From positions 1 through 58,155 of the forward strand of contig BJFW01000003.1 in the NCBI GenBank assembly GCA_014190095.1: a stretch of DNA of 58,155 bases, written 5' to 3'. The position numbers and the translations under genes are program-made. This DNA comes from Actinomycetes bacterium. GTDB taxonomy: Bacteria; Actinomycetota; Acidimicrobiia; Acidimicrobiales; Ilumatobacteraceae. Below the pieces are notes generated by a model. It had not been told where the DNA came from. It saw nothing but the letters and a program-made list of their open reading frames with translations, and searched no databases. Each line of letters opens with the position of its first letter. The first letter of the stretch is position 1. This document shows, piece by piece, positions 23,816 to 38,181 of this stretch.

Positions 23816-24919
23816 TTACTTCAGGAACGAAGGAACGTCAAGTCCGTCATCGTCGTCGCGCAGTGGATCTTCACCAGCGCCGAACAATTCCTTCAAACGA
23901 CTTCCACGCTGTTCTGGAATGCGACCAGTATCAACCGAGCGTGATTCACGCTGACGCGAACTGGTGTTGTCAACACGATCAAAGCCGGCGGCGATCACCG
24001 TGATCTTTACTTCATCATCAAGTTCGTCGTCAATAACCGAACCAAAGATGATGTTTGCATCAGGGTGAGCAACTGCATGAATGATTTCAGAGGCGGTGTT
24101 CACTTCGAACAATCCGAGGTCTGAAGGACCAGCAATGTTCAACAGAATTCCGCGGGCACCTTCAACTGAGGACTCAAGCAGCGGTGAGTTGATGGCGGCG
24201 TTCGCTGCAACTGTTGCGCGATTGTCTCCAGTTCCTCGACCGATTCCCATCAGTGAAGTTCCTGCGTTCTTCAAAATCATCTTCACGTCAGCAAAGTCGG
24301 TGTTAATCAGGCCAGGAGTCATGATCAACCCGGTGATCCCCACTACTCCGTCCAACAACACCTGGTCTGCTGATGCAAATGCAGCCAACAAGCTGGTCTT
24401 GTCACTTGAGATGGCGAGCAAGCGCTCGTTTGGAATGACAATAAGCGTGTCAACTTTTTCGCGAAGTTTTGAAATTCCTGCTTCCGCCTGCAATGCACGA
24501 CGACGACCTTCGAAATTAAACGGTCGTGTCACGATGCCAACAGTGAGTGCACCTGCTGCGCGTGAGATTTCTGCGATAACTGGAGCTGCGCCAGTTCCTG
24601 TTCCGCCACCTTCGCCTGCGGTGATGAACACCATGTCGGCACCAGCAACGAGTTCTTCGATCTCTGCGCGACTCGACTCCGCTGCTTCACGACCAACTTC
24701 AGGATCGCTACCTGCACCAAGACCACGAGTGAACTCACGACCAATATCGATCTTCACTTCTGCGTCGCTCATCATGAGCGCCTGCGCATCGGTGTTTATG
24801 GCAATGAACTCAACACCTTTCATTCCAGAGTCAATCATGCGCTGCACAGCATTAATGCCGCCGCCGCCCACGCCAATCACCTTGATTACTGCAAGAAAGT
24901 TGTGCGGTGCTCCAGCCAT
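23816..24919 (-). CDS. ftsZ: Cell division protein FtsZ
   Basis: A 367-residue tubulin-like GTPase: [10 protein letters not shown] at the nucleotide site, the tubulin signature [11 protein letters not shown]7 loop region and a C-terminal peptide [11 protein letters not shown] that binds SepF. It forms the Z ring. Two ATGs are possible. GGAGG lies 1 nt before the first (24926-24928), which is too close, and 10 nt before the second (24917-24919), which gives [12 protein letters not shown] use the second. It has a 136-bp upstream gap after the murB-ftsQ fusion. Confidence 0.96.
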
Positions 24920-25055
24920 AATGTTCATGCCTCCGTTAGCGATTACTCGATTTATTCAATTTATGAGATCTATGTGAAACGCCTGTAATGACGTCGCTCA
25001 CGAGGCTAGTTGACCAAGAAGGCTTGCATTGGAAGCCTCAAATATTGGGTTGCAA
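24920..25055 (-). promoter_or_regulatory. Leader of ftsZ with possible promoter and small hairpin
   Basis: This is the only sizeable gap inside the mur/fts run. On the minus strand it holds a TAAATT box (24963-24958) about 40 nt before the ftsZ start, and a GGAGG ribosome site. Nearer the ftsQ end is an inverted repeat, AGGCTT at 25020-25025 with AAGCCT at 25033-25038. A separate ftsZ promoter is common in actinobacteria. No -35 match or U-run is evident. Confidence 0.35.
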
Positions 25056-27257
25056 CTACGGCGAAGACACCACAGGGGTTCCAGAGGACACATCGATGCC
25101 TGCGATCTGGTTGATGTCCTGGCGGCGCAGAATAACGACAACATTAACTAGCTTGTTTCGCAGGTCTACGGGCTCGCCAAACTTCACTACTGCCCCAGTC
25201 AACAGGGTCATCGTTACCTGATTCGGACCATTAACGCCCATGTTTTTGACTACCGGGCGAATCTCGTCTGGTAGCGACATCGCTAATTGTGCGGCGGCCT
25301 TATACGACTCTGATGCAATTGCACCTGCGATCAAATTGGGTCCAGTGCCATCAATGAGTATGTATTCAGTGGGCCGCCCATTGACCACAGCAAGAACGCG
25401 ACCGTCCTGATCGATCACTCTGCCCTGGTTGTCTACGCCTAAGAACCACGCAACTGGTGTTCGCTCATTAATTTCAATCACTGCTCTACTTGGAAGATAC
25501 GTCTTGATGCGAACCGACTCAATCCATGGATCTGTTTCAAGAAGTTTCTGTGCCGCATTTGTGTCGACGGTTAACACCGACTTGCCACGCAGACTCTTTG
25601 ACACGGTTTCAATCAATGTTGCGTTTGCATACTTTGCGCCTTCAACATCAATATTGCGCACTGCCACCAATGGAGACGCCAACACAATCAGCACAACAAC
25701 GACAGATGCAACAAATGAACCGCCAACCACTAACAACTGCTTGCGACGATTCACACCACGCATCGTGAACAACCGCTTTGTGCCATTGATAACTCGACGA
25801 CCAAACGAAAGCTCAGACCACGCGGTTCCATCAATAATTACAGCGCCCTCAGCACTGTCATCACCGCCACCTGGGAGTATCTCATCATCCAAAATTGCTA
25901 CGCGAGTTGAGGTTGGAGCGCGATGCACACTCTGCGACATGGTGTCAGCAGGAAAGTCATCGTCTGTCACGATTCTTAGGTCATCATCAACAATCACCAC
26001 TCGCTCTGCAGGTTGAATAGGAACGATGGTTGCGTCACGTGCGACACCACTTGTGATATCCCGTGTTGCATCACGACCGAAAGCATCTCTCAGTTCTTCA
26101 AGCACTTCATCGGACACATCGGAATCGACGATTCGAACCACTTCTCCATTGAGCACCGAGACCGGAATGGTTCCATCCGTGGTCTCATTTGCCGTAGTTG
26201 ATTTGTCAAAAACTTGTTCGAGCCGAATAGTAGAAACGCCAACATCAGAGTCTTTGTTAATGAGATCCACAATTGCTGGATCAGTTTCATCTTCGAACCC
26301 GACAAGTCGAATCTCGCTCCGCAACACATATCCTCGTTCGTCACGCACACGGCGTCGCACCTCTGCCATCAGCGCCACTACATCCTGCGCGCTTCCACCA
26401 ACATCAGCCTGAATAAAGTTGGCATGCTTTTCCGAAACCTGAGCGGAACCAACACGCAAACCACGCATACCCAGTTCATCGATTACTGCACCGGCTGAAA
26501 CCTTGCCGGGTTCTGGATTGACAAATACCGAACCTGCGTTTTGTCCACCTGGTTGGTTCTCTCGACGCCAACGAACCACTTCTTGCAATTCTGCTTCCGA
26601 AGCCTCGGGCGAATGTGTCCATTCCAAGTCAACAGTTGCGCTGAGAACCACATGATGATCATCTAAAGCCGAACCGCGGAATCGCAGCCCGAGATCAACC
26701 GCATTCACATGGGCTTCACGTCCTTTGCGCAAATGGAACATCCGCACCGAGGTAAGCGAAGACGCCATGTCGGAACCATGTCCACCTGCGTTCATTCGCA
26801 CCGCTCCGCCTATCGAACCGGGAACACCAACACCCCACTCAAAACCAGTGAGTCCACGTGCAACGCTTTGCCGTGCTGCAACAGGAAGCGCAACTGAACC
26901 GCCGAATAATGCAATTGGTTCCACTCCAGGCTCTTCGTCACGATTCGGCAAGTCGACGTAGTCGGCAAGTCCGTTCATGGTGATCGCCAAACCTTTAAAT
27001 CCTGTGTCGGAGATCAGCAAATTGCTTCCACGTCCAATCACCAAAATTGGTAATTCAACCTCGGCAAGGACAGCACTCACGAGGTACAGGTCATCAATCG
27101 ATGAAACCATCATGTGCAGCGCGGCAGTGCCACCAACTTTGTACGTGGTGAATTGTGCAAGGTCTACATTTCTCTTTGCTTTTGCACTGAACAGACCAAA
27201 AGCATGCTCAATTGCCTCAGGGGTCGCGGGGCGACGAAGTTGATGAGGAGTACTCAC
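25056..27257 (-). CDS. MurB-FtsQ fusion (UDP-MurNAc dehydrogenase joined to divisome protein FtsQ)
   Basis: One uninterrupted 733-residue frame. Residues 20-322 are a complete MurB: YKVGGTA (39-45), RGSN (76-79), GVPGSIGGAVRMNAG, catalytic Ser243 in GSVFVNP, and E315 in RSEIRLVG; MurB reduces UDP-GlcNAc-enolpyruvate to UDP-MurNAc using FAD. Residues 324-505 are an acidic linker of low complexity. A membrane helix follows at 507-532, then a POTRA domain from 533 (NIDVEGAKYANATLI) and the FtsQ beta domain. The topology is coherent: MurB cytoplasmic, FtsQ outside. murC overlaps its start (ATGA). Confidence 0.93.
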   Translation of the reverse strand: MSTPHQLRRPATPEAIEHAFGLFSAKAKRNVDLAQFTTYKVGGTAALHMMVSSIDDLYLVSAVLAEVELPILVIGRGSNLLISDTGFKGLAITMNGLADYVDLPNRDEEPGVEPIALFGGSVALPVAARQSVARGLTGFEWGVGVPGSIGGAVRMNAGGHGSDMASSLTSVRMFHLRKGREAHVNAVDLGLRFRGSALDDHHVVLSATVDLEWTHSPEASEAELQEVVRWRRENQPGGQNAGSVFVNPEPGKVSAGAVIDELGMRGLRVGSAQVSEKHANFIQADVGGSAQDVVALMAEVRRRVRDERGYVLRSEIRLVGFEDETDPAIVDLINKDSDVGVSTIRLEQVFDKSTTANETTDGTIPVSVLNGEVVRIVDSDVSDEVLEELRDAFGRDATRDITSGVARDATIVPIQPAERVVIVDDDLRIVTDDDFPADTMSQSVHRAPTSTRVAILDDEILPGGGDDSAEGAVIIDGTAWSELSFGRRVINGTKRLFTMRGVNRRKQLLVVGGSFVASVVVVLIVLASPLVAVRNIDVEGAKYANATLIETVSKSLRGKSVLTVDTNAAQKLLETDPWIESVRIKTYLPSRAVIEINERTPVAWFLGVDNQGRVIDQDGRVLAVVNGRPTEYILIDGTGPNLIAGAIASESYKAAAQLAMSLPDEIRPVVKNMGVNGPNQVTMTLLTGAVVKFGEPVDLRNKLVNVVVILRRQDINQIAGIDVSSGTPVVSSP

Positions 27258-28678
27258 GAACCTCCCCGCAATGCGCGACGCGCTGTTATCACTTCATCAG
27301 GCAACGTTTCGATGTCACCACAACCCATGGAAATGCACAGGTCACCTGAACGCAATTCAGTCGCAAGATGCTGAATCAACTCGGCACGCGTTGGCTTCCA
27401 CGCAATTGAAGTGTTGGGATGAGCTTGAGCAATTGCATCAACCACAAGTTTGCCAGTTACCCCTGCGATTGGCGTTGTGCCAGAGGAATAGATGTCGGTG
27501 ATAACCACATGATCTGCCGCAGCAAAACAGTCGGCATATGCATCCGACATGTATTGCATGCGATTGAAGCGGTTCGGCTGGAAAACTGCGACTACCCGTG
27601 TCCATGAATCTGTTTCGTCCGTGCAACTTGAAAGCACTGCTGAAATCTCCGTCGGCAAATGCGCGTAATCATCTACAAATGACACGCCATCGTCATTTCC
27701 TCGTAGGTCGAACCTGCGCGATACACCAGAAAATGTAGCGAGCGCAGGGGCAATCACATCAAAATGAATTCCCAGAAGAGTCGACATGGCAACCACTCCT
27801 AACGCATTAGCGACATTGTGTTCACCGCGCAACCGCAAAGTGACACGACCGAGTAACAGTCCGTTACCGCCAGGAACTTCTTGGCGAAATACATCAAATG
27901 TCGACCCGCCATCGTGAAACTGTACATTGCGCGCCGTGAACTGTGCTGGCGAATGAATCGCATAGGTGGTGACATTTTGCTTGAGTGCAATAGCCGATAG
28001 CGATGCATCATCAGCACAAATCACCTTTGGACCAGAGACTGCGTCAATAAATCGCTCAAAACTTTCGACCATGTTTTCAAAAGTAGAAAAGTGGTCAAGG
28101 TGGTCGATGTCAATATTGGTAACAATGACAGCGCCTAATGGAAGCTGCTCATGAGTGCCATCACTTTCATCAGCTTCAACCACCAAGTGGTCACCGCTAT
28201 CCCACGATGCCCCACTGCCCACTCCTCGAACCTCACCGCCAATAACGAAACTTGGATGTAACTGTGCTGCTCGAAGAACAGTCATGAGCATTGACGATGT
28301 GGTGGTCTTGCCATGAGTGCCGGCAATACCTATTGATAGTTTTTGTCCACAGATCAAAGCCAACATCTGAGCCCTACTCAGTATCGCAATACCAGAATTG
28401 AGTGCTTCAACCAATTCAGTGTTGTGTTTTGGAATTGCCGATGAAGCAGTCACTGCATCGCAGTGGTGAACGGACTCGGCGTCATGACCGATATTGATCG
28501 TCACACCAATTTCTCGCAGTCGTTGCACCGTCTCGGAATCTTTAATGTCGCTGCCCGAAACCACATGTCCCATTTCAACCAACACTTGCGCAATAGCGCT
28601 CATTCCAGGACCACCTACACCAACAACATGAATTCGTTTACACGTCGATAAGTCAAGTTGCAAGTTTGCTGACTTCAC
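27254..28678 (-). CDS. murC: UDP-N-acetylmuramate-L-alanine ligase
   Basis: The 474-residue Mur ligase adds L-Ala to UDP-MurNAc. It has the UDP-binding GVGGPGMSAIA motif (20-30), ATP-binding GTHGKTT (120-126), and late Mur domains including DDYAHLPTE and FQPNRFNR. Its stop overlaps the start of the murB-ftsQ fusion and its own ATG overlaps the murG stop (both ATGA), so the order MurC then MurB in translation is tightly coupled. Confidence 0.96.
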   Translation of the reverse strand: MKSANLQLDLSTCKRIHVVGVGGPGMSAIAQVLVEMGHVVSGSDIKDSETVQRLREIGVTINIGHDAESVHHCDAVTASSAIPKHNTELVEALNSGIAILSRAQMLALICGQKLSIGIAGTHGKTTTSSMLMTVLRAAQLHPSFVIGGEVRGVGSGASWDSGDHLVVEADESDGTHEQLPLGAVIVTNIDIDHLDHFSTFENMVESFERFIDAVSGPKVICADDASLSAIALKQNVTTYAIHSPAQFTARNVQFHDGGSTFDVFRQEVPGGNGLLLGRVTLRLRGEHNVANALGVVAMSTLLGIHFDVIAPALATFSGVSRRFDLRGNDDGVSFVDDYAHLPTEISAVLSSCTDETDSWTRVVAVFQPNRFNRMQYMSDAYADCFAAADHVVITDIYSSGTTPIAGVTGKLVVDAIAQAHPNTSIAWKPTRAELIQHLATELRSGDLCISMGCGDIETLPDEVITARRALRGGS

Positions 28679-29820
28679 GATTGCACCTTTGCTGCGGCTT
28701 CAATAACTCTCGCAATTGAACATTGGCGATGCACCGCACCCAAATCGCGAGCACGACTTGCGATTGCTGATCTGCGGTCATCGTCACGAAGCAGGTCCGT
28801 AACCAACTGTGAGAATTCGTGCACAGTTAAGGCACTCTCTTCAAGCAGAACTGCACCGCCACGATCAGTTAACCACTTTGCATTTACTAGCTGGTGGTTT
28901 TCGGCTGCATCCTTCCATGGAACGACCACAGCACAGACTCCCACCGTCGATATTTCCGCAATGGTGCTTGCGCCGGCTCTGCACACCACAACGTCAGCAG
29001 CGGAATATAGCGTGAGCATGTCCTGCGAATATGCAATTCGCGAATAGGCCAGTGTTCCGTTGCTGTGATGCATCGTGACCGGAAGTTTCACCGCGTCCAT
29101 GAATCGCTCTCCACAAATATGGATGATGCACGTGTGTTCAGTGCCTCGCAGACTCTGCACCAAGTGCTCTGTTGCGGAGTTCAGCACAGCAGATCCGAGT
29201 GATCCGCCCATTACTACTGCTACTCGCGCACTTGCAGAAATTCCTAGCGACTCCCGTGCACTAATCCGAAGCGCATGCACATCTGCCGAGCGCAAGTTGC
29301 GTCTAACGGGAGCTCCGGTCTCGACTGCATTTCGCAACTTACTTGGTACATACGCCACAGCCGACGCAGACGCATATCGCGACTGCAGTTTGGTAGCCAG
29401 ACCTGGCCGACGATCGTATGAACAGGTGATGACGGGAATGCTCAAACTTCGAGCGGCTCGACATGTGGGAATACTCGCATAGCCCCCTACAGAAATGACT
29501 ACTTGTGGTTTCAATAGTTCAAGCAAGGTTTTTGCGCTTCCGAGAGCACGCAGCATTGTCGGCACCATCAGCACATTGCGTTTTATTTTGGATAGCGAGA
29601 ATCCACGTTGCAAACCATCCACTGCAAGAAAAGTATGGGCCAAACCAAGCGGAGGAACCATGGTTACTTCTGCCCCGCGAGTCGAACCCACATAATGCAG
29701 CGACGAGAGGCTGTGCCCAGCATCTGCAAGTAGTTCTGCAATAGCAATTGCAGGTACTACGTGACCGCTGGTTCCGCCTCCAGTGATTACGGCAAAGGTG
29801 GTTGAAGCGGGCACGACCAT
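28675..29820 (-). CDS. murG: UDP-GlcNAc:lipid I GlcNAc transferase
   Basis: This 381-residue GT-B glycosyltransferase converts lipid I to lipid II at the cytoplasmic membrane face. It has the N-terminal GGGTSGHVVPA loop, a GGSLGSAVLN second glycine loop and the donor-site region CRAGASTIAEI. It starts 3 nt after ftsW and overlaps murC by ATGA. It is full length with no oddities. Confidence 0.95.
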   Translation of the reverse strand: MVVPASTTFAVITGGGTSGHVVPAIAIAELLADAGHSLSSLHYVGSTRGAEVTMVPPLGLAHTFLAVDGLQRGFSLSKIKRNVLMVPTMLRALGSAKTLLELLKPQVVISVGGYASIPTCRAARSLSIPVITCSYDRRPGLATKLQSRYASASAVAYVPSKLRNAVETGAPVRRNLRSADVHALRISARESLGISASARVAVVMGGSLGSAVLNSATEHLVQSLRGTEHTCIIHICGERFMDAVKLPVTMHHSNGTLAYSRIAYSQDMLTLYSAADVVVCRAGASTIAEISTVGVCAVVVPWKDAAENHQLVNAKWLTDRGGAVLLEESALTVHEFSQLVTDLLRDDDRRSAIASRARDLGAVHRQCSIARVIEAAAKVQS

Positions 29821-31023: not shown

Positions 31024-32373
31024 CTAGCGATGGTTTCCTGATAGTTCTCGAACGCAATTCATGAAATCGTCGCCCCGTTCACCGTAGTTTGAGTACCAGT
31101 CGTAACTGGTGCATCCCGGTGACAGAACCACAACATCTCCTGCTCGCGCAAGCACTCGCGCTTGAGCAACGGCATCACTCATGCTCTCTGCCTTAACAAC
31201 AGTGCACACACCACTGAAAGCACGTGCAATATCGTCTGCAGAGTCACCAATGGCAACGACTGCTCTCATGCGCTGAGGTTCGCATGCCATTTGCGAGAGA
31301 TCTAAACCCTTGTTCTTTCCCCCGGCAATTAACACAATGCTGTCGAATGCGCGCAACGCCACACTTGCAGCATGTGGACTTGTTGCCTTTGAATCGTTAA
31401 ACCAATTCACCCCGTCTAATTCTGTTACGAATTGAATGCGGTGCGGAGCGTTTTCAAACTGCTCCAAAGCCTGTGCCACATGTTCTGTACTTGCAAGCCC
31501 ACTCTCGATACATACTGCAGCTGCAGCAAGTGCGTTGGTGATGTCGTGAGGCAACGAGCGCTTCATTCTTGAAATACTGGTAATAGGACCAAACGGTCCA
31601 CACAATTCTTCGCCTACTACGCGGTAGTCGCCCTCTGTTGCGCCAAACGTAACCATGCGTGCAGCACTCGCACGCGCTACCGCCAAGATGTTCACGTCAT
31701 CACTCGGTGCAACAGCCACATCAGTTGGCAAGCAATTCGCCCACATCTTTGCCTTCGCATCAAAATACTGCTGGTAAGTACCGTGCCAATCCAGATGATC
31801 AGGTGCGATGTTCAACCACGCAGAAGCCTGCGCCCGAAACATCTCGGTATATTCCAACCGAAAACTTGAACATTCAACAGCAAAAACCTGTGCATCGGTA
31901 TCCAGAGATTCGATGAGCGGCACTTCGGTGTTACCTACTGCTTCCGTGCGTAAACCTGCGGCGCGAAGAATTGCAGTTATTAAAAATGTCGTTGTCGTTT
32001 TGCCGTCGGTTCCAGTGACAGCAACAGTTGGTCGCGGTCCATCGCTTCGAGTTTGTTCCATGCGATGAGAAATCTCGATTTCCGACTGGATGGAAATACC
32101 GTGTTCACGAGCGCTACGAATGACAGCGTGGTGTATCGGCACGCCTGGCGCAGGAGAAAGCACGTTTATCTCACTCATTACCCGCTGCAATTGCCCATCG
32201 CGAGCAATATCTACAACGCGAGCGCCAACGGACTGAGCAAATGAACGATGTTCGTTTGTCAAGTTGTCGTCACCGACTACAACCTCAATGCCCCGTTTAC
32301 GAAGCGATGTAGCAACCGCACGCCCTGCTACCGCCAGACCAAATACAAAGGTTGCGTCGCGGCTCTCGGTCAT
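31024..32373 (-). CDS. murD: UDP-MurNAc-L-Ala:D-Glu ligase
   Basis: About 449 residues with GLAVAGRAVA (12-21) for the UDP part, ATP-binding GTDGKTT (121-127), LNIAPDHLDWH and NDSKATSPHA motifs of the MurD family. It adds D-glutamate. The ATG at 32371-32373 overlaps the mraY stop (ATGA); the longer frame starting at 32430 would lie inside mraY and lacks support. Confidence 0.95.
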   Translation of the reverse strand: MTESRDATFVFGLAVAGRAVATSLRKRGIEVVVGDDNLTNEHRSFAQSVGARVVDIARDGQLQRVMSEINVLSPAPGVPIHHAVIRSAREHGISIQSEIEISHRMEQTRSDGPRPTVAVTGTDGKTTTTFLITAILRAAGLRTEAVGNTEVPLIESLDTDAQVFAVECSSFRLEYTEMFRAQASAWLNIAPDHLDWHGTYQQYFDAKAKMWANCLPTDVAVAPSDDVNILAVARASAARMVTFGATEGDYRVVGEELCGPFGPITSISRMKRSLPHDITNALAAAAVCIESGLASTEHVAQALEQFENAPHRIQFVTELDGVNWFNDSKATSPHAASVALRAFDSIVLIAGGKNKGLDLSQMACEPQRMRAVVAIGDSADDIARAFSGVCTVVKAESMSDAVAQARVLARAGDVVVLSPGCTSYDWYSNYGERGDDFMNCVRELSGNHR

Positions 32374-33416
32374 CGGGACACTTGATTGGTGAAGTCGGCA
32401 ATGAAGATTGCAACTGCAGTTGCAACACATATCCCAGAAATAATCCAGAATCGAATGATCACAGTCGTCTCAGGCCAACCACTGAGTTCAAAGTGGTGAT
32501 GAATCGGCGACATCTTAAATAGGCGCTTCTTTCGACCTGATGCCTTGAACACGCCCATCTGCACTGCGACCGAACCAGCTTCAATCACATTGATGCCACA
32601 AATGATCGGCAACATTAGGTGAGTATTCGTTGTTACAGCCAATGTTCCTAGTGCTGCCCCTAATCCGAGAGCACCAACATCACCCATAAAGATCTGGGCC
32701 GGCGCGGCGTTCCACCACAAGAAACCTCCGCACGCTCCTGCAAGTGCCGCAGAGAGCACCGCAAGATCAAGCGGGTTCACGATGTCGTAGATGCGCGGAT
32801 TACGAAATGCCCAGTACGCGATAATGGTAAACGCCAAAAATCCGAACAATGCTGAACCTGCTGCAAGACCGTCCAAACCGTCCGTCACATTTACTGCGTT
32901 GGTCGTGCTCCAGACCATTATTGCTGTCCACACAATGAACAGCGGCCCTGATAACTCCCAACTCGGGCTGAGTTCACGAGTAAATGAAATAGTTTGTGCA
33001 ACACCGGTGGTGGAAGCCAAAAAGAACATCAGCACTGCAGTGATGCCGAACGTGATCCATCCCTTTTTCTTCCAAAAAATTCCACGATTGTGCTGGCGCT
33101 TTACTTTGAGGTAGTCATCGAGAAATCCAATAGCAGCCAACACAAACACCGTGAGCCAAATGATTGCTGCTTGATCTGAAAAGGGAAGTCCATCTCGCAA
33201 GTGTGCAACTAGCCAGCCAACGAACCCCGCTGCCAAAATGGCGATTCCACCCATCGTCGGAGTTCCCTGCTTTGCCATCTGATGCGCTGGACCATGGTCT
33301 TCTGCTCCGAGAATGGGCTGACCTTTACCGAGGCGTTGAAAGAAAGATATGAGTGCACGAGTGCCGGCAAGTGATACCAGCATTCCTACAGCACCTGCAA
33401 TTAAAACGGCAATCAT
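32370..33416 (-). CDS. mraY: Phospho-MurNAc-pentapeptide transferase
   Basis: A 348-residue polytopic enzyme that makes lipid I from UDP-MurNAc-pentapeptide and undecaprenyl phosphate. It shows LGAEDHGPAHQMAKQGTPTMGG near the N-terminus, the catalytic NAVNVTDGLDGLAAG, FMGDVGALGLG and the HHHFELSGW loop. The ATG overlaps the murE stop (ATGA). murF, normally between murE and mraY, is not present. Confidence 0.96.
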   Translation of the reverse strand: MIAVLIAGAVGMLVSLAGTRALISFFQRLGKGQPILGAEDHGPAHQMAKQGTPTMGGIAILAAGFVGWLVAHLRDGLPFSDQAAIIWLTVFVLAAIGFLDDYLKVKRQHNRGIFWKKKGWITFGITAVLMFFLASTTGVAQTISFTRELSPSWELSGPLFIVWTAIMVWSTTNAVNVTDGLDGLAAGSALFGFLAFTIIAYWAFRNPRIYDIVNPLDLAVLSAALAGACGGFLWWNAAPAQIFMGDVGALGLGAALGTLAVTTNTHLMLPIICGINVIEAGSVAVQMGVFKASGRKKRLFKMSPIHHHFELSGWPETTVIIRFWIISGICVATAVAIFIADFTNQVSR

Positions 33417-34864
33417 GATTGAGCTCCTAGAAGTTCACGAGCGACTTGTGCATCGTTAAACGGAAAAATTTCAGTTCCAATGGTTTGAGTGTTTTCGTGA
33501 CCCTTTCCCGCAATCACAACAACATCTCCACGATGAGCAATAGAAAACGCCTTACCAATTGCGGCACGACGATCTAATTCAGTGCACAGCACTTTATGCG
33601 AATCAGACGCTGCAACTCCAGCATTGATTTGCGCTGCAATCGCAGCCCCAGACTCCGAACGAGGATTATCTGAAGTAATAATCACTACATCTGACTTTGC
33701 AGCAGCGATTTCCCCCATTGGCCCACGCTTCTCAGCGTCACGATCTCCACCACAGCCAAATACCACCACCAGTTTTCCAGACTCGCTCATCAGCGATCGC
33801 GCTGTGTCAAGCACACGCTCTAGAGCATCTGGTGTGTGCGCGTAATCCACAATTACATCGAATAGTTGCCCCGCGTCAATGGACTCAAATCGACCAGGTA
33901 CTGCAGTTGCGCGACTCAAGCCCTCTGCAATCTTTGCAAGTGGAATCTCAAGGGCTCTCGCAGTAGCGACTGCAGCAAGCGAATTCATCACGTTGAATTG
34001 ACCACCTAATTGTGCGCGCATCTGCACACCTTCAATTTCATACTCAATGTGGCGTGCATCCATGCGAACCTGAGAGATGTCACTCATTCCAAATGACTCC
34101 GCATCAATCGTCATGGTGTCGAGAAGAAGTTGGCCATGCACATCGTCGCGATTAATGATTCCGCACGCCGAATACTCTTTCGTGAAGAGTTTTGCCTTAG
34201 CGGCAAAGTACCTCTCCATGGTGAGGTGGAAGTCCAAATGATCTTGCGACAAATTCGTAAATACTGCAGCTTCAAACGTCGTACCCACTACGCGATGAAG
34301 CTCCAATGCATGTGAAGTCACTTCCATTACTACAGCTTCAACACCTTCGCGTTCCCACGCGCTGAGCATGCGCTGCAAATCAGTTGATTCTGGGGTTGTT
34401 CTCGTACTTGTCAACGTTCCGATGACTTCAGTTTTCCAACCGTGTGAACGCAGAATTTCTGCGAGCAAATGCGCAGTAGTCGTCTTTCCATTTGTTCCCG
34501 TTATACCGACAACGTGAAGCCGCGTACTCGGGAATTGACGCAGGGCGGCGGCCAATAATCCCATCGCCAGGCGTACATCACGAACCACAATTTGGGGTAC
34601 ATCAAAGGGCAAAGTACGTTCCACCAGCAATGCCGATGCCCCAGCGTCAATCGCCATCTGCGCGAAATCATGGCCGTCTTCATGTGCTCCACCTACGCAA
34701 CAGAACAAAGCGCCGGAGCTCACCTCACGTGAGTCATGTGCAACATCGGTGACCAAAGAGTCATCACCAACGATTTCAATGAGCAGACCGCGGGTGGCAA
34801 GCTGTGCTGTTTCCACAAGTTGACGCACTGCCATCCGGCCAGTCGGAGCCAGCGACGCACTCAT
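33413..34864 (-). CDS. murE: UDP-MurNAc-tripeptide synthetase (meso-DAP adding)
   Basis: A 483-residue Mur ligase with ATP-binding GTNGKTT (123-129), the carbamylated-lysine region, and DNPR at 399-402, the motif of meso-diaminopimelate-specific MurE. The wall is therefore predicted to be DAP type. It starts 2 nt after ftsI. It is directly followed by mraY with an ATGA overlap, so there is no room for murF. Confidence 0.95.
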   Translation of the reverse strand: MSASLAPTGRMAVRQLVETAQLATRGLLIEIVGDDSLVTDVAHDSREVSSGALFCCVGGAHEDGHDFAQMAIDAGASALLVERTLPFDVPQIVVRDVRLAMGLLAAALRQFPSTRLHVVGITGTNGKTTTAHLLAEILRSHGWKTEVIGTLTSTRTTPESTDLQRMLSAWEREGVEAVVMEVTSHALELHRVVGTTFEAAVFTNLSQDHLDFHLTMERYFAAKAKLFTKEYSACGIINRDDVHGQLLLDTMTIDAESFGMSDISQVRMDARHIEYEIEGVQMRAQLGGQFNVMNSLAAVATARALEIPLAKIAEGLSRATAVPGRFESIDAGQLFDVIVDYAHTPDALERVLDTARSLMSESGKLVVVFGCGGDRDAEKRGPMGEIAAAKSDVVIITSDNPRSESGAAIAAQINAGVAASDSHKVLCTELDRRAAIGKAFSIAHRGDVVVIAGKGHENTQTIGTEIFPFNDAQVARELLGAQS

Positions 34865-34866
34865 GA

Positions 34867-36738
34867 CTAGCGCTTTGGTCCGAGCTCTGCTGGACGCTCT
34901 TTTGGACAGCCAAGGTCGGCTGCATCTGGACGAATATCGAGTTCACTAATCAGCACCTGTGCAATGTTGGCGAACACTGGCGCTGCAGCCGTTCCACCAA
35001 ATCGATCCAAAGATGCAGCATTTGGTTCGTCAATCGAAACCAACACGGTGAACCGCGGCTGCTGAGCAGGGATGAATCCTACGAAACTCGCAAAGTACGA
35101 ACGCGAACCGTCGTCGGCGGAATACGTTCCGTTGTCCTGGCGCTTATAGGCCGTTCCCGTCTTTCCAGCAACCGTCATGCCTGGTACTTTTCCAAGTGTT
35201 GCAGTTCCGAAACAGACGACATCAGACATCAACGCACGCATAGTTGCAGCAGTCTCTGGAGTGATGACCGCATGCTGTTCTTTAGGCGGAATCGATTCGT
35301 TTATACCGTCTTTAGTTACTGTTGCCGTCACCAAACGAGGTGCAACATAATTTCCGTTGTTTGCCACCACGTTTACGCCAGCAATCAACTGCAAGGCCGT
35401 TGTTGAGTAACCGTAGCCATACGAAGTAGTGAATTTCTTCGCACCCTGCCACTTGTTTGCAGACTGCAGAATTCCTTTGGTTTCACCCGGGAAGCCAAGT
35501 GCCGACTGTGCACCAAAACCGAAAGACTTCAAATAGTCATACAGCTTGTTCGGTCCAATTGTTTGTCCGATCATCAGCGTTCCGACGTTCGATGAATCTA
35601 CGAATATTTTTCGCACCGACATATCTTCGAGACCGTGTGGATATGCGTCATTAAGTGGCTGTTCCCACTTCGTACCTTTGTTGGCAATGAATGTTGGCGG
35701 AACGCTGAATACGGTCTTTGAGTCAACCTGACCCTCATTAATTGCTGCAGCAATGCTGAACACCTTTGCAACCGAACCAGGCTCATTCGCTTCAACTGCT
35801 GCGATGTTTCCCGAATCAGCCGAGTACGTACCGTCTTCATTTAAACGAAGTGTTGACATTGCATAAATCTCGCCAGTGGCGGAATCCATCACGATTGCAG
35901 TTCCACTTCGCGCCTGAAGTCGTGCAATCTGCTGAGCCAAAATGCCATCAACCTGGAACTGAATGTTGCGATCGATGGTGGTGACCAATGTTTTGCCTGG
36001 AATTGCGGCAACGCTCTCATCCTGCGTTGCCGGAATGGATTGGCCCTTGGCGCTCACTTCACGAACCTGTCGGCCATTAACTCCAGCGAGCAACATGTCG
36101 AACTGCATTTCAAGTCCAGATGTACCAATTCCGTCAGGATCAGTGCGCCCAACTAACGCGCGCAATCCATCACTCGTTAGTTCGCGACCCGATTCCTTAT
36201 ACGAAGACACACCTGGCAATTGCAACGCAATGAGTAAGTCAGCTACTTCTTGCGTAGTTTGACGCGCAACGTAAGTGAAGCTCGAGGTCTTGTTTTGCAG
36301 TCTCTCTGCAAGCGCAAGTTCGGCCTCAGGTGACATTGCCAACACTGCTGCGATTGCACGGGCGGTGCCAACCGGATCAATCACTTCACGTGGGTCAGCG
36401 AAAACCGTGCGAAGCGGAATTGGTATTGCTAGTTCTAGGCCGTTACGGTCAAGAATGGATCCGCGTTCTGCCTTCACAACATTCACTCGAGTGCGCTGCG
36501 AAACACTTGCGTCGCGATATTGACCAGAACCGATTGTTTGCAAGTATCCCGTGCGCAACAACATCGCGCACAGCATCAAAGAGACACCAATGCGCACATA
36601 CGCCAGTCGGTGCGAGATCTTTCCTGGTTTGAGGTCTTCGGTCAGCGTACGAACGGTGTGTCGCGCTGCAGCACGTGCAATGTCGCTGGCGCGCTGTGGC
36701 TCGTGACGTCGTCCGCGTGATCCTGCAGCGATACTCAA
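34867..36738 (-). CDS. ftsI: Septal transpeptidase FtsI (class B penicillin-binding protein)
   Basis: 623 residues: a cytoplasmic tail of about 45 residues, one membrane helix (47-63), pedestal domain beginning VVKAERGSILDRNG, and a transpeptidase domain with the active-site SVAK (Ser322), SSN (382-384) and KTGT (526-529). It cross-links septal peptidoglycan. The C-terminus is proline/charge rich with no PASTA domain. It overlaps the ftsL stop by ATGA. Confidence 0.95.
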   Translation of the reverse strand: MSIAAGSRGRRHEPQRASDIARAAARHTVRTLTEDLKPGKISHRLAYVRIGVSLMLCAMLLRTGYLQTIGSGQYRDASVSQRTRVNVVKAERGSILDRNGLELAIPIPLRTVFADPREVIDPVGTARAIAAVLAMSPEAELALAERLQNKTSSFTYVARQTTQEVADLLIALQLPGVSSYKESGRELTSDGLRALVGRTDPDGIGTSGLEMQFDMLLAGVNGRQVREVSAKGQSIPATQDESVAAIPGKTLVTTIDRNIQFQVDGILAQQIARLQARSGTAIVMDSATGEIYAMSTLRLNEDGTYSADSGNIAAVEANEPGSVAKVFSIAAAINEGQVDSKTVFSVPPTFIANKGTKWEQPLNDAYPHGLEDMSVRKIFVDSSNVGTLMIGQTIGPNKLYDYLKSFGFGAQSALGFPGETKGILQSANKWQGAKKFTTSYGYGYSTTALQLIAGVNVVANNGNYVAPRLVTATVTKDGINESIPPKEQHAVITPETAATMRALMSDVVCFGTATLGKVPGMTVAGKTGTAYKRQDNGTYSADDGSRSYFASFVGFIPAQQPRFTVLVSIDEPNAASLDRFGGTAAAPVFANIAQVLISELDIRPDAADLGCPKERPAELGPKR

Positions 36739-37226
36739 GGCTGTGTCCCCTCGTTCTGTGCAATGCCCAAGTTCGCAAGTGGGTTAAGTGAGGTGATGTT
36801 CGATGGGTTAGCAAACGCAGGATCCATCTTCCCCGTCGAGATCACAACAGATGCAACAACATCTTGGGGGACTTCCACAAACTTCGAACCAAGACCCGGC
36901 GTCATCATCATGGCTTTCGCCTGTTCGCGCAGATATTCCGGCGCCAACAGGGTGACCCGCTGTTGACGGAGCTCATCGTGGTACTGCCGTGCGAGCGAAA
37001 TCTCGCTCGTGAGGCGATCCAACTTCAATTGCTGGCCAGCAATGTATGCCTGCAAGCCAATTACCGATGACACCACCACAAACAAACCGAGCACCATGGT
37101 GCTGAAAAACAAAATGGTTCGCTTTGATGTTCCAGGAATGACTGTGAGATGGCGTTCAGGGGGTATCGATTGTCCACCCCGTGGTTGCCGTTGCGGCACC
37201 CGTTGTGTGTTGATCGCTAACGCCAT
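36735..37226 (-). CDS. ftsL: FtsL-like divisome protein
   Basis: About 163 residues: a basic cytoplasmic N-terminus, one membrane helix (36-60), a coiled-coil stretch (62-95) and a short extracellular tail, the FtsL architecture. The position between rsmH and ftsI is the classical one. Sequence identity to other FtsL proteins is always low, so the call rests on position and topology. The ATG at 37224-37226 lies 1 nt after the rsmH stop; the longer frame would lie inside rsmH. Confidence 0.82.
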   Translation of the reverse strand: MALAINTQRVPQRQPRGGQSIPPERHLTVIPGTSKRTILFFSTMVLGLFVVVSSVIGLQAYIAGQQLKLDRLTSEISLARQYHDELRQQRVTLLAPEYLREQAKAMMMTPGLGSKFVEVPQDVVASVVISTGKMDPAFANPSNITSLNPLANLGIAQNEGTQP

Positions 37227-37227
37227 C

Positions 37228-38181
37228 TCAGCAGCCGACCTTTTCAATAACCCTGAGTCGCGCAGACGATGCGCGAGGGTTGCGTTCGATTTCCTCCGCA
37301 GATGCATGCTCCGCGACACGCACCTTCTTCACCAACTTGCCCGAGGACAAGTGGTGTTGGAATGGAGATGCGATCGTGGTTGCTCCTGGACGAGTTTGCG
37401 CATCACGGAACGCCTGCTTCACAATGCGGTCTTCGCCTGAGTGATACGACAACACAGCAATTCGGCCACCCACTTCCGTGGCGGCAATTGCATCCGAAAT
37501 TGCCTTGGGCAAGATTTCGAGCTCCTTGTTAACTTCAATGCGAATTGCTTGGAACGTGCGCTTCGCTGGATGCCCACCGGTTCGGCGAGCTGGAGCAGGT
37601 ATCGCGTTGGCGACAATCTCTGCAAGTGCTGATGTCGTCAAGACTGGTCGTGCTGCAACAATTGCCTTCGCAATGCGAAAAGCGAATCGCTCGTCTGCAT
37701 GCTCGCGCAAGACGTCGGCTAGCTGCTGAACTTCGTAACCATTCACCACATCAAGGGCACTGAAATCTTGTGAGGTGTTCATGCGCATATCAAGAGGTCC
37801 GTCATGGCGGTACGAAAAGCCACGCCCTGCTTCGTCGAACTGCGGCGAAGAAACTCCTAGGTCAAACAAAGCACCAGAAATTTTTGGTACGTGATGCAAC
37901 TGCAGGAATTCCGCAATGCCGTCAAAGCGACCTTGGTGAAACATCAGTCGGCCTTCGAATTGTGGCGACACCTTGCGTGCATGTTCAATGGCCATCGGGT
38001 CTTGATCAATTCCGAAAACACTCATCCACGAATACGTAGAGAGCAGTCGCATTGCGTGCCCAGCGCCTCCTAACGTTGCATCCACAACTACGCCGTGAGG
38101 AACCGCACCGAATAGTTCAGTTATTTCACTAGCCATTACCGGCTCGTGATTAAACGTTGAGTGAGTTGCAGGTGAGTTCAT
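37228..38181 (-). CDS. rsmH: 16S rRNA (cytosine1402-N4)-methyltransferase RsmH (MraW)
   Basis: The 317-residue SAM-dependent methyltransferase has HEPVMASEI, ATLGGAGHA (SAM loop), LFDLGVSSPQFDEAGRGFSYR and DGPLDMRM family blocks. It methylates C1402 of 16S rRNA at the P site. A structured RNA of the mraW type lies just upstream. It is followed by ftsL after 1 nt. Confidence 0.95.
   Translation of the reverse strand: MNSPATHSTFNHEPVMASEITELFGAVPHGVVVDATLGGAGHAMRLLSTYSWMSVFGIDQDPMAIEHARKVSPQFEGRLMFHQGRFDGIAEFLQLHHVPKISGALFDLGVSSPQFDEAGRGFSYRHDGPLDMRMNTSQDFSALDVVNGYEVQQLADVLREHADERFAFRIAKAIVAARPVLTTSALAEIVANAIPAPARRTGGHPAKRTFQAIRIEVNKELEILPKAISDAIAATEVGGRIAVLSYHSGEDRIVKQAFRDAQTRPGATTIASPFQHHLSSGKLVKKVRVAEHASAEEIERNPRASSARLRVIEKVGC

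Follow-up and report, generated by a model that had tools for sequence, protein, structure and literature searches.

A probably ancient fusion of murB and ftsQ in the dcw cluster of three genera of Acidimicrobiales

The dcw cluster of an actinobacterium of the family Ilumatobacteraceae very probably harbors a genuine, ancient fusion of murB and ftsQ, in which a cytosolic MurB, an old FtsQ tail, a membrane helix and an external POTRA/FtsQ region would be united in one protein. The fusion was found in the stretch of 58,155 nucleotides of contig BJFW01000003.1 that was analyzed here, termed the window. A forward-strand reading of 25056-27257 was rejected, as its translation is not open. The gene and the parts recognized in it are listed below.

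25056..27257, minus strand: murB::ftsQ fusion gene, GTG start, 733 aa, single open frame
27261..27267, minus strand: Shine-Dalgarno-like GGGGAGG before the GTG start of the fusion, from reading of the sequence
26292..27188, minus strand: predicted MurB enzyme, residues 24-322 (Pfam, TIGR00179, Foldseek)
25749..26282, minus strand: predicted cytoplasmic linker, residues 326-503, acidic and largely disordered (pLDDT, composition)
26196..26240, minus strand: motif 1, predicted helix 340-354 (STIRLEQVF) just after MurB, seen in fused linkers
26079..26111, minus strand: motif 2, DEVLEELRDAF, residues 383-393, with E388, L389 and F393 invariant, common to unfused FtsQ tails
25974..26003, minus strand: motif 3, RVVIVDDDLR (RVVI.DD-like), in 45/65 fused and 30/80 unfused sequences (0.3 expected)
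25677..25748, minus strand: predicted single transmembrane helix, residues 504-527 (model helix; hydropathy peak 2.9)
25461..25664, minus strand: POTRA domain of FtsQ type, residues 532-599 (PF08478, POTRA_1, 42.2 bits, cut-off 23)
25089..25430, minus strand: FtsQ/DivIB C-terminal domain, residues 610-723 (PF03799, FtsQ_DivIB_C, 26.6 bits, cut-off 21)

The first-pass annotation of this DNA had placed MurB and FtsQ in one 733-residue frame, and this was borne out by the ORF and by all four Pfam domains, which scored over their cut-offs. In the MurB part, FAD_binding_4 (PF01565, residues 50-180) and MurB_C (PF02873, residues 222-319) exceeded their gathering cut-offs, and the TIGR00179 murB model was passed with a score of 161.5 against a cut-off of 144.5. 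The NCBIfam ftsQ model NF004039 also matched the fusion, with a score under its cut-off. The catalytic residues Ser243 and E315 were located at the positions given in the annotation and were invariant in 33/33 fused proteins. Sequence relatives of known structure were MurBs (e.g., 4pyt, 3tx1, and 1hsk), and Foldseek aligned this part with MurB 4pyt (E 9.6e-25). By its domains, fold and catalytic residues, this half can be assigned as a predicted MurB reductase. The computed mass of the whole protein is about 78.4 kDa, and its GTG start overlaps the murC stop (GTGA, 4 nt).

The acidic linker, earlier put at about 180 residues, comprises 178 residues (326-503) with 35 D/E vs 17 K/R, and it is followed, as had been described, by one membrane helix (about 504-527) and the Pfam-matched POTRA and FtsQ domains. 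Seven K/R residues lie in the 25 residues preceding the helix and two following it, which constitutes a positive-inside signal; with MurB and the K/R-rich flank before the helix and POTRA/FtsQ after it, the proposed topology is upheld. The FtsQ half is thus predicted to be bitopic with the POTRA and FtsQ C-terminal domains outside. The structure prediction suggested by the annotation was carried out with AlphaFold2 (33 sequences; mean pLDDT 71, pTM 0.49), and the model showed a MurB fold and a POTRA/FtsQ fold joined by a linker predicted to be disordered at 393-487 (pLDDT <50) and by helix 504-527, the relative placement of the MurB and FtsQ domains being of low confidence. Foldseek matched the FtsQ part to FtsQ of the FtsQ-FtsB structure 6h9o (E 7.9e-10) and also to 5z2w and 8hhf. 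Owing to this domain and helix anatomy, MurB is expected to be tethered: it would be held at the membrane and would concentrate where FtsQ does, including the division site during septation.

The source genome is a draft of 1.77 Mb in 146 contigs and is 94% complete. A profile search of this genome found one MurB_C and one POTRA_1 match over cut-off, both in the fusion ORF; separate murB and ftsQ genes elsewhere, named earlier as evidence against the fusion, were hence not detected over cut-off, which makes the fusion the sole MurB of the genome and its sole clear FtsQ. A second POTRA candidate on contig C1 was discarded (12 bits, with a stop inside), and an FtsB candidate scored 19.4 bits, under its cut-off. 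Apart from the fusion, the dcw cluster is ordinary, with the minus-strand order rsmH, FtsL-like ORF, transpeptidase in the ftsI position, murE, mraY, Mur ligase in the murD position, ftsW, murG, murC, murB::ftsQ, ftsZ, an ORF in the ylmE position, and sepF. The overlaps of murG with murC and of murC with murB are 4 nt each.

37228-38181, minus strand: rsmH, dcw context
36735-37319, minus strand: FtsL-like ORF (E 3.9e-6, score under cut-off)
34867-36738, minus strand: transpeptidase in the ftsI position, dcw context
33413-34864, minus strand: murE, in the dcw cluster
32370-33416, minus strand: mraY, dcw context
31024-32430, minus strand: Mur ligase in the murD position, dcw context
28675..29820, minus strand: murG, separate here, joined to murC in relatives
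27254..28678, minus strand: murC, upstream neighbor, separate here, joined to murB or murG in relatives
23816..24928, minus strand: ftsZ, downstream neighbor, dcw context

The murF gene lies outside the cluster (contig C6:39304-40524). Genes of RodA type (a second FtsW/RodA), a PBP2-type transpeptidase and an MreB-like protein are clustered on contig C43:948-6930, and a second strong MreB match (contig C33:9811-10779) brings the strong MreB matches in the genome to two. With MreB, a second FtsW/RodA and PBP2-type genes present, the only MurB must also serve elongation.

A whole-protein scan of bacterial genomes returned 80 loci belonging to Ilumatobacteraceae and Acidimicrobiaceae (order Acidimicrobiales), and 39 of these (L004-L034, L037-L044) contained MurB and FtsQ in one stop-free frame; the loci from L045 on had separate genes or genes that the contig covered only in part. 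In a 150-genome sample of the family, single-frame matches occurred in genera g1, g12, and g204, so that the search for this architecture in Acidimicrobiia, advised in the annotation, located the fusion in genomes of several genera. In a 395-genome class-wide sample, g1 and g12 were the only genera with full-length matches among the best matches listed, and a 159-genome phylum-wide POTRA_1 sample, confined to Actinomycetota and with the long frames fetched and read, yielded no further fusion. Across the genomes sampled, the fusion was restricted to three genera in a single family of Acidimicrobiales, the bearers being a group of aquatic actinobacteria with small genomes. Several candidates were set aside: the long POTRA frames of other actinobacteria (G822, G871, G893, G864, and G861) were merely long stop-free frames with no joint MurB+FtsQ frame, the spanning matches G413 and G484 (g9 and g11) had stops inside and represented separate genes, and several long MurB frames of high-GC relatives (e.g., L045 and L055) were without a second domain. 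G475 and G509 are contig fragments only.

After more regions were fetched, the fusion was present in 65 loci (the window and some duplicates of one genome included), which derive from many separate assemblies and are mostly metagenome-assembled; the frame was open in all of them, with none of the stops or frameshifts in relatives that the annotation had named as counter-evidence. The fused proteins were 47-93% identical to that of the window. An independent tree was built with FastTree from FtsW, MurG, MurC and FtsZ (98 rows, 1544 columns), with MurB and FtsQ left out. The 41 distinct fused rows formed one exact clade with local support of 1.0, and murB::ftsQ required one change and no reversal, every sampled member of the clade retaining it. 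As the fused rows make up exactly one clade, the fusion arose once.

The linker, which includes the peptide SDEVLEELRDAF, is the least conserved portion of the fusion. Its pN/pS was 0.18-0.37 in four subclades (0.25 in that of the window), as compared to 0.10-0.16 for MurB and 0.05-0.21 for the transmembrane and FtsQ part, and its closest-pair dN/dS was 0.02-0.09. The low pN/pS indicates that the linker is translated in the fusion frame and is constrained by purifying selection. A long flexible cytoplasmic tail is already present in the unfused FtsQ of relatives, and the motif [AED]EL..[AVLE]F occurs in 62/65 fused linkers as well as in 49/80 unfused FtsQ tails, against 0.1 expected. Retention of FtsQ-tail motifs in the fused linkers suggests that the linker is largely the old FtsQ cytoplasmic tail, and the motif itself is possibly a candidate binding site for another division protein. 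No in-frame start with a Shine-Dalgarno-like motif upstream was found in the linker of the window. An internal start yielding a separate FtsQ was rejected, since SD-preceded starts were few in the relatives and not aligned.

Fusions were also found at neighboring junctions, and their domains were confirmed by Pfam. The minimum number of changes on the tree was four for murG::murC, two for murC::murB and one for murB::ftsQ. Wherever the contig of a g204 locus covered both murG and murC, the two were fused, directly before murB::ftsQ, and thus four genes are carried there as two polyproteins; this arrangement was seen in L020, L021, L023-L026, L028-L030, L032, L033, L037, L039, L040, L042, L044, and L093. 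The murC::murB fusion was present in g11 loci, relatives of the window, and murC::murB with a separate ftsQ was noted in L066, L070, L074, L076, L080, and L136-L141. A murG::murC::murB triple of 1164-1212 aa with no stops was present in four loci, at two separate places in the tree (L090 vs L089, L091, and L092).

L089 4152-7703, minus strand: murG::murC::murB triple fusion
L090 1987-5622, plus strand: murG::murC::murB triple fusion
L091 5201-8692, minus strand: murG::murC::murB triple fusion
L092 4180-7734, minus strand: murG::murC::murB triple fusion

In L091, a single in-frame stop lies between the triple fusion and ftsQ. Neither ftsW::murG nor ftsQ::ftsZ was encountered in the surveyed loci.

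The first-pass annotation had supposed that loss of a stop could have fused the two genes. The fusion proved genuine, but stop loss alone would not suffice, because the frames of murB and ftsQ differ in 74/80 unfused relatives and agree in 6/80; a frame-changing indel or rearrangement would also be needed. The unfused murB/ftsQ junction is often a 4-nt ATGA/GTGA overlap. The likely route starts from the overlapping, tightly packed genes murG-murC-murB-ftsQ, in which indels would have removed the frame boundary, and the same kind of event would have recurred at adjoining junctions in sister genera. The product would be made and kept as one polypeptide doing both jobs.

Compatible with this is a neutral collapse of the operon, to which we give an even chance: overlapping, co-translated dcw genes of small genomes would fuse by chance indels, and the fusions would persist as a long flexible linker lets both domains go on working and as several mutations would be required for reversal. 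Consistent with it are the changes counted in the family (at least four for murG::murC, two for murC::murB, one for murB::ftsQ), the abutting or 4-nt overlapping genes, the flexible tail already borne by unfused FtsQ, and the genome sizes, which are mostly 1.2-2.3 Mb in fusion-bearing genera and 2-6 Mb in many others. The association with genome size is, however, confounded by shared ancestry, some small-genome genera carry no fusion, and neither ftsW-murG nor ftsQ-ftsZ was among the junctions found fused. Uniform retention fits neutral and adaptive accounts alike.

It is possible, but rather doubtful, that the fusion was selected because UDP-MurNAc made at the divisome renders septal peptidoglycan synthesis more efficient or because division state controls precursor flux. 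The retention in all sampled members of the three-genus clade and the suitable topology are in agreement with such selection, and Mur enzymes have been reported to associate, with other Mur fusions described (PMC6420597, PMC4929429). Against it, the MurB step is early, and its product has still to pass MurC, MurD, MurE, MurF and MraY. UDP-MurNAc itself is soluble and free to diffuse. The link between its supply and septal synthesis that the annotation proposed is conjectural and is weakened by the elongation genes, as the single MurB must also serve the MreB, RodA and PBP2-type system. Recurrent fusions at other junctions, including that of the non-successive MurG and MurC, favor a more general cause, namely a tendency of overlapping genes to fuse. 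A bolder proposal is that FtsQ is a metabolically active divisome hub, with all UDP-MurNAc synthesis of the cell on the FtsQ complex and division state controlling supply, and with murG::murC and the triple fusion as further steps to one precursor-to-septum assembly line; this is considered unlikely.

Proteolysis within the disordered linker could cut the two halves apart, and residues 393-487 together with the low conservation of the linker would suit a polyprotein from which soluble MurB and an ordinary FtsQ are freed. Such processing appears improbable: a conserved protease site was not recognized in the linker, the conserved linker positions include motifs also present in unfused FtsQ tails, which accounts for them without cleavage, and the MurB/C of Verrucomicrobium spinosum was judged by its authors to be probably active as a fusion (PMC4803751). 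An assembly artefact or a sequencing error deleting a stop, conceivable in a 146-contig draft, is rejected with near certainty, as the frame is conserved in 65 loci at 47-93% identity with purifying selection across the junction.

As in other dcw gene fusions, the genes joined here are adjacent, are separate in relatives, and form one stop-free frame conserved across species. The MurB/C fusion gene of V. spinosum complements E. coli murB and murC mutants (PMC4803751), and it likewise joins MurB to another dcw enzyme in one lineage-restricted ORF. Its partner, however, is the soluble next-step ligase, whereas the partner in the present fusion is a division protein of the membrane that has no enzymatic role, and murC is a separate ORF in the window, which sets the present fusion apart from the MurB/C type. 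Other fusions of adjacent cell-wall or division genes include murE/murF (Bordetella), murG/murC (C. gilvus), ftsW/murG (K. flavida), MraY/MurG, and MurC/Ddl (PMC4929429, PMC6420597); ftsW/murG also combines a divisome membrane protein with a precursor enzyme, but no fusion listed in PMC4929429 and PMC6420597 includes FtsQ or pairs MurB with a division protein. Like ordinary bitopic FtsQ/DivIB (6h9o, 5z2w, and 8hhf), the fusion has one helix, POTRA, the FtsQ C-terminal domain and a position before ftsZ; it differs in that its cytoplasmic tail bears a complete MurB. No report of MurB-FtsQ or MurG-MurC-MurB was found in the literature searched, many subscription papers lying beyond its reach. With a precursor enzyme attached to the FtsQ hub, the fusion is a new combination among known dcw gene fusions.

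The finding touches two old questions, namely whether the divisome physically organizes cytoplasmic precursor synthesis and what keeps the order of dcw genes so conserved. The conserved FtsQ-tail motif suggests a hitherto undescribed contact of the tail in these organisms. An apparently obligate MurB-FtsQ tether, together with sister lineages bearing other or no fusions, provides natural variants for testing these questions, and would allow a natural test of whether the supply of precursors is physically linked to cell division.
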